A stretch of 8,033 nt of DNA from Bacillota bacterium. GTDB taxonomy: Bacteria; Bacillota_C; Negativicutes; Sporomusales; Sporomusaceae. The notes beneath the pieces were generated by a model. That model did not search any database. It worked only from the letters and a program-made list of their open reading frames with translations, and was not told the DNA's origin. Where the stretch lies: the NCBI GenBank assembly GCA_023441125.1, contig JAEZQV010000482.1, positions 1 to 8,033 of the forward strand. The letters are read 5' to 3'. Below are positions 1,638 through 8,033 of the stretch, in pieces. Within the stretch, counting starts at the first letter, position 1. The number at the start of each line of letters is the position of its first letter. The translations under genes were made by a program, and so were the position numbers.

Positions 1638-1675
1638 AAACCTGTTTGCGAACCAACGCAGACAGGTTTTTTGTT
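1638..1675 (+). terminator. Intrinsic terminator after thrB
   Basis: A 13-bp stem (1638-1650 with 1657-1669, containing one G-T wobble) closes a six-base loop AACCAA and runs into TTTTTT at 1667-1672. It begins 12 bases after the thrB stop codon and should end hom-thrB transcription. The 5' arm segment CCTGT (1641-1645) could instead pair with ACAGG at 1633-1637, forming a short 5-bp hairpin that would compete with the terminator. The longer stem should win. Confidence 0.9.
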
Positions 1676-1753: not shown

Positions 1754-2176
1754 GTGTCCGACCCTTATGCCCGCAATATGTTCGGCGCCTTTAATCCCTA
1801 TTACGCCAAACAACCTGTCATGGGCCGGCTGGTGGTAGTTCTGGACGGAGTATATGAAAATCGCGGGCTGGAACTCATTAAACCACCTTCAAGGGCCTTG
1901 CGCCAAACGGAAATTCACGAACTGATTGGTACCGCTGAAGCCGCTCAGCCTGGCAGTAAAGTGAATACGATTGCCTATGTCGGCTTTTTTGAAGTTTCTC
2001 AGGGCGGTGTAATTGTAGCCGGTGATCCAGTCACAATCGGCGGCAAAGTCGTCGGCAAGATTGCGGGATATGATGAAACACACATGCCTAATCATTTGAA
2101 TATCGTCCTACATGGCGACAAAAACCCCGGTAAAGACATCGGCTTGTCTGTCGCCGACGAAGTTATCATTGGTTAA
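1754..2176 (+). CDS. Small beta-rich protein of unknown function (tentatively DUF6917-like)
   Basis: This 140-residue soluble protein has no signal peptide or membrane segment. The first 20 residues are aromatic and Asn-rich (ARNMFGAFNPYYAKQ). After them come short hydrophobic strands separated by glycines: VMGRLVVVLDGVYENRGLEL, then VNTIAYVGFFEVSQGGVIVAGD, then a strand-turn-strand GGKVVGKIAGYD. The most distinctive segment is DETHMPNHLNIVLHGD, whose His pair and acidic residues could form a ligand or metal site (inference). The pattern suggests a compact beta-barrel. From memory it resembles the domain called DUF6917, but I could not verify this and would not assign a function. It starts with GTG behind a very strong ribosome binding site, is the first gene after the thrB terminator, and lies 26 bases before the RidA gene, so it probably leads that operon. 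Confidence 0.8.
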   Translation: MSDPYARNMFGAFNPYYAKQPVMGRLVVVLDGVYENRGLELIKPPSRALRQTEIHELIGTAEAAQPGSKVNTIAYVGFFEVSQGGVIVAGDPVTIGGKVVGKIAGYDETHMPNHLNIVLHGDKNPGKDIGLSVADEVIIG

Positions 2177-2189
2177 CCCATTTCAGCTG

Positions 2190-2195
2190 AGGAGG
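2190..2195 (+). promoter_or_regulatory. Shine-Dalgarno site supporting a TTG start
   Basis: AGGAGG lies 7 bases before TTG at 2203. No in-frame ATG occurs near the 5' end (the first internal Met is residue 147), so TTG must be the initiator. The resulting N-terminus (SYEAKAKELGI) fits the longer RidA subgroup. Confidence 0.85.
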
Positions 2196-2202
2196 GATCT
2201 GT

Positions 2203-2661
2203 TTGAGTTACGAGGCAAAAGCAAAAGAACTGGGCATCACGATACCCGAAGCTGCCAAACCATTGGCCGTATATGTCCCGGCAGTTAAGGAAGGCAACTA
2301 TATCTATACTTCAGGCCAAATCCCCCTGGTGGCCGGCGAACTTAAGTTTAAAGGCAAACTTGGCAAAGAACTGTCCGTGGAACAGGGCTATGAGGCCGCC
2401 AAGACCTGCGCCATTAACTGCCTGGCCGCTATTAAGGGCGTCGCGGGTTCGCTTGACAACATTGAAAAAATAATCAAAATTGTCGGCTTTGTCAACAGTG
2501 CGCCCGGCTTTGTCGATCAGCCCAAAGTAGTCAATGGCGCCTCCGAGCTTATTGGCGCCATTTTTGGCCCTGCCGGCGAACATTCCCGTTCCGCGGTGGG
2601 GGTAGCCGAACTGCCCATAGATTCGGCCGTGGAAGTAGAAATGATTGTCAAAGTTAAGTAA
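2203..2661 (+). CDS. RidA/YjgF/YER057c/UK114-family protein, probable enamine/imine deaminase
   Basis: RidA-type proteins are small cytoplasmic trimers that hydrolyse reactive enamine/imine products of PLP enzymes (for example 2-aminoacrylate) to keto acids plus ammonia. This one has 152 residues, longer than the roughly 128 of classical RidA. It fits the ~150-residue YjgF_like_1 subgroup by its opening (SYEAKAKELGITIPEAAKP) and by the segment VNSAPGFVDQPKVVNGASEL. The strand IYTSGQIPL is typical. The C-terminal block SRSAVGVAELPIDSAVEVEM carries Arg129, matching the position of the conserved active-site Arg of the superfamily. It is the only arginine in the whole protein. The start codon is TTG. 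It lies directly upstream of a PLP enzyme, the context expected for a protein that clears that enzyme's intermediates. Family is secure; the exact substrate is not. Confidence 0.92.
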   Translation: MSYEAKAKELGITIPEAAKPLAVYVPAVKEGNYIYTSGQIPLVAGELKFKGKLGKELSVEQGYEAAKTCAINCLAAIKGVAGSLDNIEKIIKIVGFVNSAPGFVDQPKVVNGASELIGAIFGPAGEHSRSAVGVAELPIDSAVEVEMIVKVK

Positions 2662-2712
2662 CAGCAAAAATGAGCAGCTAGCCAACATACAGCCATATTA
2701 AGGAGGACAACC

Positions 2713-4182
2713 ATGAGCACTCACAAATTCAAATTCCAGATGTATCGCGCTTTACAACAAAATATTCCTAACATCTATGCCGATGCTCGCAAGGCCGCCG
2801 ATGAACTTAACATACCCAAAGAGCTTAGAGGCAAGTTCGGTCTAACCGGGGCCATTTCCGGCTGCCCGGCCCCGCTGCGCGATGACATCATGGAGTACAG
2901 CGAACACGGCGCCAGAGAAGTCATTCCGCTGGCTAAACTGGTAGACGATATCCGTGAATTGGTAAAATCGGTCTATGGCGATGAATTTGACGCGGCCCCG
3001 GTGTCAACCTGTGAGGCCGGTCTGTGGGTAACGTTTGACAGTCTCTTCAGCCCGCCCATGATGGGGCGCGGTGATAACTACCGCTCCCGGTATATAGCCC
3101 CCTACGAAAAGCATTTACATCATCAAGGCGCTTACGGCCGCCCGTTCCCGGCCCGGTATAAAGACATACTGGGTGACCGCGGCACCACGGCCGGCGAACT
3201 CGGCTTCTACGGCAAAAGGCAAAACAATCTTGATACCGTTATCGTTCCGCTGGCCGGCGCCCGGTATGATGTCCATGGCATCAAATACCATCCGGTACCG
3301 CTGTTAACCGGCGTCGATCCTGAAGAATCCCTTGATATTTTAAGTGAGCATGCCAGCATTCACGCTCCGTTCCTGACCGGCATCACCAGCCTGGGCTATG
3401 AAACTCCGGGCTATGGCTATGCCGTTAAAGATGAAGAGGGTACTCCCCTCCTGCAAAAATACCTGGCCGATCTGGCTCACTCTTACGATATCCCGTATGT
3501 GATCGACAATGCCTGGGGACTGCCTTTCGTAGGCTGTAACCCGCTGAAAAACGGGGCGGACGTCATTATCTACAGTATGGACAAGGCTACCGGCGCGGCT
3601 ACCAGCGGTCTGATCATTGGCCGGGAAGAAGTCATGGTGCCCATCCGCCGGGCAATGGGCGTGCACGGTGACCGGTACGGTACGACTGCATCCTATGGCA
3701 AAGCCGCCTATGTAACCTTTGATCCGGGCAAAGAAGCACTGTTAAGCCAAATTCAGGCCCTTAAGGTGCTGCGCGACAACCCCAAAGTGTTGACCGATCC
3801 GGTTGATGCTCTCGAAAGAATCATCAAGGAAGAGTTTGCCAAGATTAACCTGCCCGCCCGTCTTAAAGACGGCATCATGATCTCCAAATCCTATAACTCA
3901 ACAGCCGTCGAAGTCAACTACGAAAAAACCTGGGAAGGCGGCGAACTGGGCATTCCCATCTTCTCTATTGAAGACATGTACGCCGGCAGTAATATCTTCC
4001 AGACCGGTATGGCGCAAATGGGCGTAATTCCGACAGTCGCTTATGACGGCAACATTTATATTTCCCCGGGCCTGGCCACTGTTGACAGTAAAAATAAGCT
4101 GCTCGAAGACGTTACCCGGTATGCCATTCAAGGTTTGGTCCGCCTGATTGAAATTACTTGTAAATATGCAGGCATTGCCTAA
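2713..4182 (+). CDS. Uncharacterised fold-type-I PLP-dependent enzyme (aminotransferase/SelA/SepCysS-like superfamily)
   Basis: This soluble enzyme of 489 residues probably uses pyridoxal phosphate on an amino substrate. The likely Schiff-base lysine is Lys291 in IIYSMDKATGAATSGLIIG, which has the pattern of the PLP lysine in SelA-like and cysteine-desulfurase-like proteins. About 26 residues earlier, YVIDNAWGLPF supplies Asp265, expected to contact the pyridine nitrogen. STCEAGLWVTF (98-108) sits where the phosphate-binding turn normally lies. Other notable blocks are the His/Gly-rich HHQGAYGRPFPARY and GDRGTTAGELGFYGKRQNN. No tRNA-binding domain is apparent, so a true selenocysteine synthase role is unlikely. 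AAGGAGG precedes the ATG closely. Flanking by RidA and a flavoenzyme suggests a lyase or decarboxylating/eliminating activity releasing an enamine or imine (inference). The fold is fairly certain; the reaction and substrate are unknown. Confidence 0.85.
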   Translation: MSTHKFKFQMYRALQQNIPNIYADARKAADELNIPKELRGKFGLTGAISGCPAPLRDDIMEYSEHGAREVIPLAKLVDDIRELVKSVYGDEFDAAPVSTCEAGLWVTFDSLFSPPMMGRGDNYRSRYIAPYEKHLHHQGAYGRPFPARYKDILGDRGTTAGELGFYGKRQNNLDTVIVPLAGARYDVHGIKYHPVPLLTGVDPEESLDILSEHASIHAPFLTGITSLGYETPGYGYAVKDEEGTPLLQKYLADLAHSYDIPYVIDNAWGLPFVGCNPLKNGADVIIYSMDKATGAATSGLIIGREEVMVPIRRAMGVHGDRYGTTASYGKAAYVTFDPGKEALLSQIQALKVLRDNPKVLTDPVDALERIIKEEFAKINLPARLKDGIMISKSYNSTAVEVNYEKTWEGGELGIPIFSIEDMYAGSNIFQTGMAQMGVIPTVAYDGNIYISPGLATVDSKNKLLEDVTRYAIQGLVRLIEITCKYAGIA

Positions 4183-4205
4183 AACAGAAACAGGAGGTAT
4201 CCCTC

Positions 4206-5504
4206 ATGGCTAAAATTGTTATTGTTGGTGGGGGGTGGGCCGGCTGCAGTGCAGCCGTGTCCGCCAAAAAAGCCGGCGCTGACGAAGTAATTTTGCTCGA
4301 ACGGGCGGATATGCTGCTGGGGACAGGCCTGGTCGGCGGCATTATGCGTAACAATGGCCGCTTTACCGCTACCGAAGAAGCAATTGCACTGGGTGGCGGC
4401 GATATATTCGAAGCGGTCGATAAAGTGGCCCGCCATAAAAACATTGAATTTCCCGGCCACAAACATGTAACCTTATATGACGTTGCCCATGTTGAACCTG
4501 CCATCAGGCGCGTTCTGGAGCACTACGGCGTCAAATACAACCTGATGGCCCGGGTACGCGATATAACCATCGACGGTCAGAAAATAAAGTCGGTGATTAC
4601 TGATAAAGATGACGAAATCTACGGCGATGTGTTTGTCGAAGCCACAGGCACTGCCGGCCCGCAGGGCCAGTGCAGCAAGTACGGCAACGGCTGTGTCATG
4701 TGCATCATCCGCTGTCCGTCCTTTGGGCCGAGAATCAGTGTGGCGGCCCGCGCCGGCGTGCAGGAAATGATCGGTCGCAAGGCAGATGGCAGCCTGGGGG
4801 CCATGAGCGGTTCCTGCAAACTGCATAAAGATTCCCTGGCCGAGCACATTGTACAGGAGCTGAACAGCAAGGGGGTAGTTGTTGTACCTATCCCGGAGGG
4901 CTTAAAAAAAGCCGAATCGCTGTCCATCAAGGCCTGTCAGCAATATGCCCTCCCAGAATTTGCCGACAATATTATTCTGTTGGACACCGGCCATGCCAAG
5001 CTTATGTCACCGTTTTATCCGCTGGACAAACTTCGCAAAATTCCCGGTTTCGAAAGCGCCCGCTATGAAGATCCCTATGCCGGCGGAGTAGGCAACTCCA
5101 TGCGCTTTACCGCGTTATCCCCCCGGGATAACGCCCTGAAAGTACAAGGTGTGGACAACCTGTTCTGCGGCGGCGAGAAAGCCGGTCTGCTGGTGGGACA
5201 CACCGAAGCGATCGTTACCGGTACGCTTGCCGGCCATAACGCAGTCCGCCAGGCTGCCGGCCAACAGCCGCTGGTGCTGCCGGAAACCCTGGCGATTGGC
5301 GACGCGATTGCCCATGTCCGTGAACAAATGCAAACCGAAGACGGCCTGAAGCTTAAGTACACGTTCTCGGGTGCACAATACTTTAAACGTATGCAGGAAA
5401 AAGGCTTATACACCACCGATGTGCAGGCAATTAAGAAGCGGGTGGAAACGGCCGGCTTAAGCGGTGTATTCGGCAGGTCTGTTACTAAGGGGGCCGCAGG
5501 ATGA
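4206..5504 (+). CDS. FAD-dependent oxidoreductase, GidA/TrmFO-like, with a four-cysteine cluster
   Basis: This cytoplasmic flavoprotein has 432 residues. The N-terminus KIVIVGGGWAGCSAAVSAKK holds the Rossmann GxGxxG-type FAD motif (G8-G13), and VILLERADMLLG follows with the ribose-binding acidic residue. A second FAD segment, EATGTAG, is at 145-151. Near the C-terminus VDNLFCGGEKAGLLVGHTEA (317-336) resembles the FAD-closing motif of GidA/TrmFO and related proteins. Between them lie Cys156, Cys163, Cys166 and Cys170, the last three in CxxCxxxCP spacing, which could bind an Fe-S cluster or metal or form a redox dithiol. The reaction is unknown; oxidation of an amino or keto intermediate, or electron transfer, is plausible. 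A role in tRNA modification is unlikely given the operon. It has a strong AGGAGGT site, lies 23 bases after the PLP gene, and overlaps the next gene by 4 bases. Confidence 0.87.
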   Translation: MAKIVIVGGGWAGCSAAVSAKKAGADEVILLERADMLLGTGLVGGIMRNNGRFTATEEAIALGGGDIFEAVDKVARHKNIEFPGHKHVTLYDVAHVEPAIRRVLEHYGVKYNLMARVRDITIDGQKIKSVITDKDDEIYGDVFVEATGTAGPQGQCSKYGNGCVMCIIRCPSFGPRISVAARAGVQEMIGRKADGSLGAMSGSCKLHKDSLAEHIVQELNSKGVVVVPIPEGLKKAESLSIKACQQYALPEFADNIILLDTGHAKLMSPFYPLDKLRKIPGFESARYEDPYAGGVGNSMRFTALSPRDNALKVQGVDNLFCGGEKAGLLVGHTEAIVTGTLAGHNAVRQAAGQQPLVLPETLAIGDAIAHVREQMQTEDGLKLKYTFSGAQYFKRMQEKGLYTTDVQAIKKRVETAGLSGVFGRSVTKGAAG

Positions 5505-6880
5505 CCGTAACGCTGACGTCCGTCCACTGGCTGTTTCTCTTTTGGGTTGGCGTAGTCATCGTGGTCATGGGCCTGCGTAAAGATCCGCTGGTGCCATGTA
5601 TCCTGGGTTTGCTGACAGTGGGCTGGCTGTTCAAGAAAAGCTTTATCGGCGGCATCACCAGTCTGTTTAATGCGCTCATCGTTGCCGGCGGAGAATTTTG
5701 GGGGATTATCGTCATTATATCCCTCATCGTTGCCCTCTCAAAGCTTTTGAGTGAAACAGGTGCCGACTATCTGGTCATGAGTCCGGCTGCCAAACTCATG
5801 ATCAATGCCGATATTGCCTACTGGGTAATCGGCATTGCCATGATGCTGGCATCCTGGTTCTTTTGGCCGTCGCCGGCAACGGCCCTCATTGGCGCCATCA
5901 TGTTTCCGGTAGCGGTGCGGGCCGGACTTTCCGCCATGGGCGCGGCGATGGCCATGAACCTGTTTGGCCACGGCATTGGCTTATCCACCGACTATGTCAT
6001 TCAGGGCGCGCCAACCATTACCGCCAAAGCCGCCGGCTTTGCCCATCCCGGTCCGGTTATTCAGGCCAGCATACCCCTGGCGATAACCATGGGCCTGGTA
6101 ACTACGATTGCCGCCTATATTGTCATTAAAAAAGATATCCGCAACAATCCCGAGTCGCATGCTGCCGAACGGGAAACTATTATTGGCAAAGAAATCAAGC
6201 GTGAGCTTACCGGTGTATCCTATTTTCTGGCGGTGGTAACACCTGTCGCCTTTTTCCTGGACGTAGTGGCCATGTGGATGCTGCAGCTCAGAGGCGGCGA
6301 TGCTACCGCTCTCCTGGGGGGGACAGCGGTACTGATCCTGGCCCTGGGAACCATGTTTAAATACGGCTGGGAAGGGTTGGAAAAAATCACCGACTTTGTG
6401 CGGGACGGTTTTATGTTTGGTATCAAAATATTTGCGCCGGTTATTATCATCGGGGGATTCTTCTTCCTGGGTAAAGGTGAACTGGCTCAAACCATTTTAA
6501 GTGATAAAACGGCAACCGGCTTTCTTGAAGACTTCGGGATAGCCCTGTCACAAGCCGTTCCGCTCAATAAGGTTTTTGTTGCGGTGGTCACTCTGGCAAC
6601 AGGTATTGTCGTCGGCCTTGATGGCTCCGGCTTCTCGCCGCTGCCGCTGGTCGGCAGTGTCGCCGCCACCTTTGGCAAGTCCGGTTTTGATACCGCAACG
6701 CTCGCGGCCCTGGGACAAATTGCCGGCGTCTGGACCGGCGGCGGTACCATTATCCCCTGGGGTTTAATCCCGGTCGCAGCCATTACCGGCGTCAATCCCA
6801 TCGACCTGGCCCGCAAGAACTTTGTGCCGGTTATAATCGGGTTTGTCGCTACGACCCTTGTGGCCGTTATTCTAATGTAA
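5501..6880 (+). CDS. Polytopic membrane transporter, family not assigned (ion-transporter-superfamily-like)
   Basis: This integral inner-membrane protein has 459 residues. Hydrophobic stretches suggest about 11-12 membrane segments, near residues 9-24, 28-44, 56-80, 105-123, 124-145, 188-210, 240-262, 268-285, 306-324, 352-375, 400-428 and 440-459. A charged, probably cytoplasmic loop lies at 210-238. Two Gly/Ser/Pro-rich stretches, FGHGIGLSTDYVIQGAP (155-171) and GLDGSGFSPLPLVG (372-385), sit one in each half. They resemble the re-entrant substrate-binding hairpins of inverted-repeat carriers such as the GntP, NhaC, CitM and DctM types. GGGTIIPWG (413-421) is another polar break in a membrane segment. 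The likely role is uptake or exchange of the substrate or product of the operon, possibly ion-coupled. The ATG overlaps the FAD gene's TGA (ATGA), indicating translational coupling. Being a transporter is likely; the substrate is unknown. Confidence 0.8.
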   Translation: MTVTLTSVHWLFLFWVGVVIVVMGLRKDPLVPCILGLLTVGWLFKKSFIGGITSLFNALIVAGGEFWGIIVIISLIVALSKLLSETGADYLVMSPAAKLMINADIAYWVIGIAMMLASWFFWPSPATALIGAIMFPVAVRAGLSAMGAAMAMNLFGHGIGLSTDYVIQGAPTITAKAAGFAHPGPVIQASIPLAITMGLVTTIAAYIVIKKDIRNNPESHAAERETIIGKEIKRELTGVSYFLAVVTPVAFFLDVVAMWMLQLRGGDATALLGGTAVLILALGTMFKYGWEGLEKITDFVRDGFMFGIKIFAPVIIIGGFFFLGKGELAQTILSDKTATGFLEDFGIALSQAVPLNKVFVAVVTLATGIVVGLDGSGFSPLPLVGSVAATFGKSGFDTATLAALGQIAGVWTGGGTIIPWGLIPVAAITGVNPIDLARKNFVPVIIGFVATTLVAVILM

Positions 6881-6913
6881 ATAGGTTTAATCTAATTAGC
6901 AGAGATACCATGT

Positions 6914-6948
6914 AATAAAAGGGTGATACGCGGTATCACCCTTTTATT
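6914..6948 (+). terminator. Perfect 16-bp hairpin, intrinsic terminator or attenuator
   Basis: AATAAAAGGGTGATAC (6914-6929) pairs perfectly with 6933-6948 around a GCG loop, and the 3' arm ends in CTTTTATT. The A-rich 5' side makes it potentially bidirectional. It lies 33 bases after the transporter stop and 24 bases before the next start codon. The next gene has the same orientation and no promoter room, so partial read-through or attenuation is likely. GATACC at 6904-6909 could alternatively pair with GGTATC at 6932-6937. Confidence 0.85.
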
Positions 6949-6972
6949 CCTTATGCGCAAAGGAGGCAGGCA

Positions 6973-7212
6973 ATGATTCAGCCATTGGAACAAGTAATGG
7001 ATGCCCTGGATGTAGAAACCTTTTTTGTCTGTGACAATGAACAGCAGGGCCGGAGTTTAATGCTGGGCTTGCTCAAGCAATGGGGCCTGACGGATGTCGA
7101 CGTTGTTTTTGCGCAGCACCTGGGGCCGGGAATCCGCGTAAGAGGCCGCGCCTATATTCACAGGCCGGCGGACAAATACAGCTGGATTGTACCCGACACG
7201 GAGCGAAAGTAG
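6973..7212 (+). CDS. Unrecognised 79-residue protein, upstream of a cobalamin protein
   Basis: I do not recognise this family. It is a small soluble protein with no signal peptide, membrane segment or cysteine pair (one Cys, in FFVCDNEQQGRS). The N-terminal half looks alpha/beta (IQPLEQVMDALDVETFFVCD, then a helix LMLGLLKQWGL). The C-terminal half is strand- and Arg-rich (GIRVRGRAYIHRPADKYSWI). A strong AAAGGAGG precedes the ATG. It ends 13 bases before the cobalamin-binding gene, so the two are almost certainly co-translated from one message. This position would suit a small subunit or accessory factor of a B12-dependent enzyme, as ornithine 4,5-aminomutase has a small subunit next to its large one. 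That comparison rests on context only; I see no sequence match. Codon use looks like its neighbours', which supports it being a real gene. Confidence 0.75.
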   Translation: MIQPLEQVMDALDVETFFVCDNEQQGRSLMLGLLKQWGLTDVDVVFAQHLGPGIRVRGRAYIHRPADKYSWIVPDTERK

Positions 7213-7225
7213 AGGTGTTAGCCAA

Positions 7226-8033
7226 ATGAAAAAAGTGCTCCTGGCGCCAATTGACCCGGTGCATGATATCGGTCTTAAAATGATTGCCCGAGGACTGGAA
7301 CAGGCCGGTCATCAGGTCATTCTCCTGCAGCCTGATTTACCGGCTGAAGAAATCGTTCAGCACATCCTCGGCCACCAGGATGTGGAAACCTTACTGCTCA
7401 GCCGGACACTGGGGTACGGAGTGGGCGAGCTGCTGGCCCGGTTTATCGACCTGGCCGACGCCGCAGGCATTCGCGAAAGAGTCAATATTGGCATCGGCGG
7501 TATGGCCATCCGTCCCGAACTGGCAGCCGAACTAGGCTTTGACGCTGGCTTCGGTCCGGGAACAACGGTGGAAGAGGTTGTCTGTTTTGTGGAAGACCGT
7601 GACTACAAGCCGGACCCCAACCGGACCAAAAAGAAAAAAATCGACATGACGGCGACTTATGACTATCGCTATGTTTCGCCCCATATTGGCGCCAAACTCG
7701 GACAAATAACCGAACTCATCCTGGACTGGGTTAAAGATAAAACCTCAGCCGGAGTGGAACGGGGGCATATCCGCGACCAGTATTGGGATGTCGAGCGCTG
7801 GCGGGACCGGCTGGGCAATGGCGACCTGGAGAAATATTATCCGTCCCGGTGCAGTGAAGTGCCCCAAAAATTTTATCAATCAGGCGAACTGCATCCCAAA
7901 ACCAGACGGTTTACCAAAGACGAAGTCGTCGGCCTGGAAAAATACCTGGAAGAAACCAAAGCGCGCATGTCGGTTGTAAAACTGCAGCATACCCGTTCAA
8001 AGCCGCTGGTCTTTAATCAATACGGTACAGGCT
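7226..8033 (+). CDS. Cobalamin-binding protein, probable B12-dependent mutase component (3' end outside window)
   Basis: The reading frame is open from ATG 7226 to the right edge (269 residues visible). Residues 1-125 form a flavodoxin-like B12-binding domain. KVLLAPIDPVHDIGLKMIAR contains His13, the expected lower cobalt ligand, with D-P-V-H-D-I-G in place of the usual DxHxxG. The loop LLLSRTLGYG (Ser59) and IGIGGMAIRP (Gly91-Gly92) match the second and third nucleotide-tail-binding motifs. A Lys-rich linker (TKKKK, 134-138) leads to a second region I do not recognise, containing YDYRYVSPHIGAKLGQITEL and ending in KLQHTRSKPLVFNQYGTG. That region may be the start of a fused mutase catalytic subunit, comparable in arrangement to glutamate mutase S and E chains joined (inference). 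The ribosome binding site is AGAGGTG. The cobalamin domain is well supported; the reaction is unknown. Confidence 0.85.
   Translation, partial: MKKVLLAPIDPVHDIGLKMIARGLEQAGHQVILLQPDLPAEEIVQHILGHQDVETLLLSRTLGYGVGELLARFIDLADAAGIRERVNIGIGGMAIRPELAAELGFDAGFGPGTTVEEVVCFVEDRDYKPDPNRTKKKKIDMTATYDYRYVSPHIGAKLGQITELILDWVKDKTSAGVERGHIRDQYWDVERWRDRLGNGDLEKYYPSRCSEVPQKFYQSGELHPKTRRFTKDEVVGLEKYLEETKARMSVVKLQHTRSKPLVFNQYGTG

Follow-up and report, generated by a model that had tools for sequence, protein, structure and literature searches.

Conservation around a predicted adenosylcobalamin mutase in a Sporomusa-like bacterium supports an apparently undescribed amino-acid pathway

Introduction

Adenosylcobalamin (AdoCbl) mutases form a small group in which every described class stands for one pathway. 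The closest described systems are the lysine-fermentation aminomutase KamDE with its partner KamB, glutamate mutase GlmES and the ornithine oxidative operon (ord-ortA-ortB-oraS-oraE), which encodes in order a diaminopimelate dehydrogenase (DAPDH)-type dehydrogenase, a small protein, a pyridoxal phosphate (PLP) enzyme, a second small protein and a B12 mutase. The same order of gene kinds, in Firmicutes without the dehydrogenase, is found in the gene cluster analyzed here, which lies on an 8,033-nucleotide stretch of DNA from a Bacillota bacterium (contig JAEZQV010000482.1, assembly GCA_023441125.1; hereafter the window). In the window the 3' end of hom and thrB are followed by seven plus-strand genes encoding a DUF6917 protein, a RidA-family protein, a PLP enzyme, a flavin adenine dinucleotide (FAD) protein, a membrane protein, a protein of 79 amino acids (aa) and a protein with a B12-binding domain (the B12 protein). 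The data presented support the cluster being a conserved, apparently undescribed amino-acid pathway, and its context points to meso-diaminopimelate as the substrate. A search of the open-licence literature found no mention of DUF6917, and among the matches listed, a part of that literature seen as titles and abstract openings, none described this cluster or a diaminopimelate fermentation pathway.

Results

Relatives of the PLP enzyme were collected by scanning a genome collection with an alignment of the enzyme, and the loci of the best 80 of 213 relatives were searched by tblastn (E<=1e-6) with one to three queries per family, a procedure that diverged copies may escape. DUF6917 was matched in 73 of the 80 loci, the 79-aa and B12 proteins in 72 each and a KamB-like protein in 62, with lower counts for the FAD protein (60), an FCD-type regulator (50), RidA (47), the transporter (31) and a diaminopimelate dehydrogenase (5). 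Strand was tallied for DUF6917, 79-aa, B12, KamB, FAD and RidA, and the first-ranked matches of all six lay on the strand of the PLP gene. In 71 of 72 loci no more than 250 bp separated the 79-aa gene from the B12 gene, and the DUF6917, PLP, 79-aa and B12 genes occurred together in 44 of the 51 loci with at least 20 kb of available DNA. The set includes some redundancy, as L035 and L038 are from near-identical strains, L032 and L037 overlap on one contig and L139, of a further set, repeats L072. The core of the cluster is DUF6917, the PLP enzyme, the 79-aa protein, the B12 protein and the KamB-like protein, the last encoded outside the window or elsewhere in the genome, and the transporter, RidA and FAD protein are optional members. 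A sequence-only reading of the window had suggested that all seven genes might form one undescribed amino-acid or amine pathway, an idea to be given up if they proved usually separate in other genomes; they do not, and a pathway of the AdoCbl-mutase kind is supported, but with a core different from the seven genes then listed.

In a phylum sample of 199 genomes the full-length PLP enzyme occurred in 18, all other matches being short generic PLP ones; the B12 protein was present in 17 of these, DUF6917 in the identical 17, and a KamB-family protein in all 17, either within the cluster or elsewhere (in Sporomusa malonica on another contig). Hosts include Sporomusaceae, Peptococcaceae, heliobacteria, Tepidanaerobacteraceae, Ignavibacteria, a Treponema and a Candidatus Adiutrix; the B12 protein was not found in the plasmid collection, and a Spirochaete phylum sample (1 of 198) yielded no further contexts. 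In Desulfosporosinus sp. BG the cluster is duplicated in tandem on a single contig (L032 and L037). In a Heliobacterium-like genome (G053) there is a diverged PLP gene only (L082:9951-11465), at a place syntenic with heliobacteria, and searches of that genome for the B12 protein and DUF6917 found neither. The surroundings in several lineages are housekeeping genes: der (EngA), plsY-, gpsA- and spoIVA-like genes and hom-thrB in Sporomusa, scpAB-like genes and a D-Ala-D-Ala carboxypeptidase in Tepidanaerobacter, and valS- and mreB-like genes in heliobacteria. Here and below plsY, gpsA, spoIVA, scpAB, valS, mreB and OraS were assigned by eye, and Ord, OrtA, OrtB, OraE, KamB, KamD, KamE, KDD, KCE, NamZ, M14, GntR and der were confirmed with models.

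The B12 gene (7226..8033, plus strand; start at the ATG that relatives use) runs off the end of the window, which holds the N-terminal part of a predicted AdoCbl mutase with a PF02310 domain (E = 1.6e-13) that belongs to a subtype without a name. It had been described from the window as a cobalamin-binding protein; the domain bears this out, but full-length relatives are of approximately 606 aa (606 in S. malonica, L002:14689-16506) and are predicted to be two-domain enzymes, with the B12-binding domain first and then a lysine 5,6-aminomutase (LAM)-type barrel, and hence more than binders. The catalytic barrel was present in the predicted structure and fold search of the S. malonica copy, and the B12-ligand motif DxVHDx[GA]xK in 65 of 65 family members. 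Eleven residues past the B12-ligand His, where the PLP Schiff-base lysine stands in 19 of 19 KamE sequences and in all 15 motifs of 15 OraE sequences, the family has Leu (61), Val (1) or Met (1) in 63 members and Lys in none. In a profile alignment KamD Ser238 (S. malonica numbering, one lower than in PMC3958899), which faces the PLP ring nitrogen, corresponds to an invariant Arg341 (NYCSGLCMPE vs RAHRGLNTPE). PF09043 was not matched at E<=5 in L002 nor at the places of the B12 protein across the 199 genomes, and PF06368, the glutamate mutase catalytic chain, was not matched in the B12 protein (hhalign E 0.08 or worse). Because the PLP anchor of lysine and ornithine aminomutases is absent, these amino acids are not indicated as substrates. 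The RTTGQS phosphate loop was rejected as a diagnostic, being absent from 65 of 65 B12 proteins but also from 5 of 20 KamD and 15 of 15 OraE sequences. The adjoining 79-aa protein (6973..7212, plus strand) has no family match and is likely a small subunit or partner of the B12 protein; the in-cluster KamB-like proteins straddle the cut-off of 210 of the reactivase model NF052386 (209.4 for that of L004, others about 190 to 253). The Sporomusa ovata copy of the B12 protein (P0128) is publicly named L-beta-lysine 5,6-aminomutase beta subunit, a name against which the family-wide loss of the PLP lysine in the aligned sequences argues.

The clue to the substrate comes from Ignavibacteria. Among 149 genomes of an Ignavibacterium class sample the PLP enzyme occurred in 11, and a diaminopimelate dehydrogenase above the TIGR01921 cut-off was present in exactly those 11, with weaker matches in 42. 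The two genes are neighbors on one contig in 10 of the 11; in the other genome, G229, each stands at the end of a different contig. On contigs that are long enough to show it, the genes run GntR regulator, dehydrogenase, DUF6917, PLP enzyme, 79-aa protein, B12 protein and KamB, the regulator being labelled in 8 of 10 windows and a GntR/FCD protein being present in L138; in a few windows antisense open reading frames (ORFs) masked the 79-aa gene or the dehydrogenase when order was read. Compared with the solved enzyme of Symbiobacterium thermophilum, 3wb9, the dehydrogenase reaches 408 bits. PMC7424261 names ten contacts to meso-diaminopimelate; in 13 of 13 sequences nine of them do not vary, and the tenth is F or Y. 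DapF is encoded by all 11 PLP-positive genomes, so meso-diaminopimelate can probably be made without this dehydrogenase. The six Ignavibacteria-type loci among the 80 lack the FAD protein and, by tblastn, RidA (6 of 6); five have the dehydrogenase, and in the sixth the contig breaks off immediately ahead of the PLP gene. In no locus of the 80 does the dehydrogenase occur together with the FAD protein or RidA, and the available DNA of ten loci, including the contig-cut one, has none of the three. This exchange leads us to propose that the flavoprotein and RidA perform the same deamination.

Genes for murein breakdown flank several clusters. An Ignavibacterium locus (L068) has LysA (485 bits), a NamZ-amidase fusion and NagK-like and AmpG-like genes, on both flanks; a Treponema locus (L025) has a NagZ-type hexosaminidase, NamZ, an LD-carboxypeptidase and an M14 peptidase; a Fermentithermobacillus locus (L076), whose available DNA does not include the B12 gene, has a MurQ/PBP4B-like piece, a NagZ-type gene, AnmK (455 bits) and a DppA-like gene; L143 and L147 have an LD-carboxypeptidase, and L147 also LysA. 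Murein proteins from these loci, used as probes, matched at least once in 12 of 80 and in 2 of 10 windows that hold the cluster, compared with 2 of 20 G255 windows, none of 15 ornithine-operon windows and none of 40 short windows. Among the 12, LysA alone was matched in seven (Tepidanaerobacter relatives) and M14 alone in two; two or more murein families were matched in four cluster windows and no control window. The probes were mostly taken from matching windows, so that only cross-matches, such as that of the Treponema island by Ignavibacteria probes, are independent.

The PLP enzyme (2713..4182, plus strand; 489 aa) belongs to fold type I and to an unnamed family, with Lys291 (in MDK) as the likely Schiff-base residue. 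Its model (predicted local distance difference test score 89) has no clear nearest family, and attempts to name the reaction by fold search were abandoned, as threonine aldolase, PhnW, NifS, SelA and Cap15 tied. The enzyme scores below every curated family cut-off listed, including that of the Cys/Met-metabolism family PF01053 (methionine gamma-lyase and kin; 20.3 against 27 bits); at E<=0.001 it has at least 1,157 relatives, of which, among the 120 shown, most are unnamed or hypothetical and a few carry Cys/Met-metabolism-type names. RidA (2203..2661, plus strand), a predicted imine/enamine deaminase, matches PF14588 (E = 1.2e-24; 87.2 bits) and PF01042 (58.2 bits) above their cut-offs and falls below that of TIGR00004. 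A Variovorax paradoxus plasmid (CP063167.1, L001:9398-13890) carries a 45% identical PLP relative with RidA, a sulfonate-type ATP-binding cassette importer and a GntR regulator, the B12 gene not being on the plasmid; this is possibly an aerobic use of the same PLP chemistry. A Lucifera locus (L005) has only the PLP enzyme and RidA in its available DNA, a second Lucifera locus (L030) having a larger set. That RidA accompanies the PLP enzyme, not the B12 protein, in these two cases fits an enamine or imine product.

The GidA-like flavoprotein (4206..5504, plus strand; PF01134, E = 1.8e-32) is a predicted iron-sulfur (Fe-S)/FAD oxidoreductase whose C-x6-C-x2-C-x3-C motif is conserved in 65 of 65 members of at least 380 aa, the window copy included; its Cys cluster, like the RidA and PLP assignments, had been recognized in the sequence-only reading. 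In related thermophile loci (L055:9162-11451, L090:4657-6923 and others) a PRK05802-like FAD/NAD-binding electron-transfer gene precedes an additional Cys-cluster flavoprotein gene, which suggests that the PRK05802-like protein is an electron partner of the flavoprotein. The membrane protein (5501..6880, plus strand) matches no Pfam family at E<=1 and has at least 6,618 relatives at E<=0.001, a few of them named transporter in UniRef; it represents an unclassified transporter-like family common in Sporomusaceae. The DUF6917 protein (1754..2176, plus strand; 140 aa) was assigned by PF21891 (E = 1.3e-45).

The ORF list agrees with the seven same-strand genes initially reported, with gaps of 26, 51, 23, -4, 92 and 13 bases. 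A hairpin with a T tail at 1638..1669 on the plus strand, folded and read from the sequence, is the likely thrB terminator, and the cluster would thus start afresh at DUF6917. A perfect 16-bp hairpin at 6914..6948, also found by folding, is a likely terminator or operator; since it lies between the transporter and 79-aa genes, the 79-aa and B12 genes may form a second transcript. S. malonica (L002) and S. acidovorans (L003) have the arm GGTGATAC at the equivalent position, the latter in an imperfect hairpin. A consensus scan listed neither hairpin, scans of the window with Rfam at gathering thresholds and for tRNAs gave no match, and four window proteins had no match in PHROGs at E<=0.1. The closest named relatives are from Sporomusa, the PLP enzyme being 94% identical to the S. 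malonica and S. carbonis copies. A homoserine/threonine link suggested by hom-thrB was dropped, as the further neighbors are housekeeping genes in conserved order.

Discussion

We tentatively propose, at somewhat less than even confidence, that the cluster, centred on a B12-domain protein predicted to be an AdoCbl mutase without PLP of its own, catabolizes cell-wall-derived meso-diaminopimelate. Murein peptides would be trimmed and meso-diaminopimelate imported. In Ignavibacteria, where gene and co-distribution were observed, the diaminopimelate dehydrogenase would oxidize off the D-amino group; in Firmicutes, including the Sporomusa-like organism of the window, the Fe-S flavoprotein would probably remove it and RidA hydrolyze the imine. 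Radical chemistry of the B12 protein, probably with the 79-aa protein as its small subunit and the KamB-like protein as its reactivase, would rearrange the carbon skeleton, and the PLP enzyme, probably with DUF6917, would split or deaminate the product for entry into central metabolism. Deamination of the D-centre, AdoCbl rearrangement and PLP-dependent cleavage are proposed by analogy with the ornithine operon layout. The data themselves show gene content, conservation, co-distribution and the loss of a motif; cofactor use, substrate, partners and the order of the steps are inferred. The fuller version, a dedicated anaerobic meso-diaminopimelate fermentation with a new class of one-chain, PLP-free AdoCbl mutase related to lysine 5,6-aminomutase and having its own small subunit and reactivase, and with the new PLP enzyme and DUF6917 as a coenzyme A- or water-dependent cleavage pair, is offered with more reserve, as a possibility.

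Several observations weigh against meso-diaminopimelate catabolism. The main weakness is that all evidence on the substrate was gathered in related organisms and none in the lineage of the window itself. The 74 non-Ignavibacteria loci, among them those closely related to the window, yielded no diaminopimelate dehydrogenase in their available DNA. The 11- and 17-genome matches reflect in part one inherited block, so that nominal odds overstate independence, and P values calculated for the motif tallies likewise leave common descent out of account. Clear murein islands stand at only 5 of 90 cluster windows (L072 and L139 being one locus counted twice), most cluster windows have no murein gene, most probe genes were chosen from the very windows with islands, one match each was also obtained in 2 of 20 control windows, and the seven LysA-only windows may reflect mere chromosome order. 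Relatives of the PLP enzyme, a distant one on the Variovorax plasmid and a close one in Lucifera L005, sit with RidA and no B12 gene nearby, so that the enzyme can also work in a different context, and several lineages carry the cluster amid housekeeping genes, as a biosynthetic set might.

The best-surviving alternative is the same AdoCbl pathway acting on another substrate, a D-amino or diamino acid besides diaminopimelate, in which case the dehydrogenase would use a D-amino acid that arises at a later point of the route. The L142 locus is flanked by two amidohydrolases, which we take to be D-aminoacylase-like, and an Na+/H+-antiporter-family transporter, and the absence of the dehydrogenase from Firmicutes loci also fits. 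According to PMC7424261, S. thermophilum-type diaminopimelate dehydrogenases additionally produce D-amino acids such as D-alanine by amination of pyruvate and further oxo acids, a further point against a diaminopimelate-specific role. However, the kept meso-diaminopimelate contacts, and LysA, LD-carboxypeptidase, NamZ and AnmK flanks that point to murein, make this alternative rather doubtful. A biosynthetic or housekeeping set making an amino acid or cofactor precursor, with no fermentation route, would be consistent with inheritance in place among housekeeping genes in Sporomusa, Tepidanaerobacter and heliobacteria, but is improbable given the FCD-regulator matches (50 of 80 loci), the GntR/FCD regulator in Ignavibacteria, the transporters, the patchy presence (18 of 199 genomes) and the murein-degradation neighbors. 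An ordinary lysine 5,6-aminomutase variant shares the fold, a KamB-like partner and the public name of P0128, yet is very unlikely, as the PLP lysine is missing in 63 of 63 sequences, KamD Ser238 aligns with an invariant Arg, the B12 domain comes first, PF09043 is not matched and S. malonica has separate standard KamD and KamE. A chance grouping or general co-regulation without a single pathway, to which the variation of RidA, FAD protein and transporter and the PLP-RidA pairs without the rest (L001, L005) might appeal, is hardly credible against the B12 protein and DUF6917 sharing exactly 17 of 199 genomes, all with the PLP enzyme, the PLP enzyme and dehydrogenase sharing exactly 11 of 149, and the 79-aa gene adjoining the B12 gene in 71 of 72 loci.

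Dead bacteria contain much nitrogen and carbon in the form of diaminopimelate, and a pathway that ferments it would close a gap in how cell walls are recycled in sediments, guts and digesters; the proposed catabolism, if true, helps explain how microbes recycle dead cells anaerobically. A LAM-fold branch without the B6 anchor would show amino-group and carbon-skeleton migration evolving from one scaffold. DUF6917, a family named but functionally blank, gains a testable role, and the database name lysine aminomutase for the B12 protein would be corrected.

As had been remarked from the window, signature genes of known fermentations are missing: window genes matched none of the kamA, kdd, kce and kal models and window proteins no NCBIfam OrtA or OrtB model. 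Unlike KamDE, the B12 protein is a single chain, and it scores 41.7 against the NCBIfam KamE cut-off of 280; S. malonica has in addition a separate standard lysine-fermentation cluster (L088:7895-15036) with KDD, KamB, KamD, KamE and KCE above cut-offs. Glutamate mutase GlmES differs in that the B12 protein has neither a PF06368 match nor profile similarity to it. Of 15 same-phylum windows, 10 showed the ornithine gene order, with Ord, OrtA, OrtB and OraE of L148 above NCBIfam cut-offs and OraS placed by position. Equating DUF6917 with OrtA, the PLP enzyme with OrtB and the 79-aa protein with OraS was rejected, the hhalign E values (0.12, 0.48 and 0.17) being no better than those of mismatched controls. 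The dehydrogenases of the two systems are homologous over their full length (P 97%, E 1.5e-11), and the mutases by sequence over the B12 domain only (P 98%, E 4e-12), that of the cluster differing in its N-terminal B12 domain and lack of the PLP lysine. The Ignavibacteria enzyme resembles S. thermophilum-type meso-diaminopimelate dehydrogenase in sequence and substrate contacts, and is unlike it in sharing a cluster with a B12 mutase and a regulator, in genomes where DapF is encoded as well.

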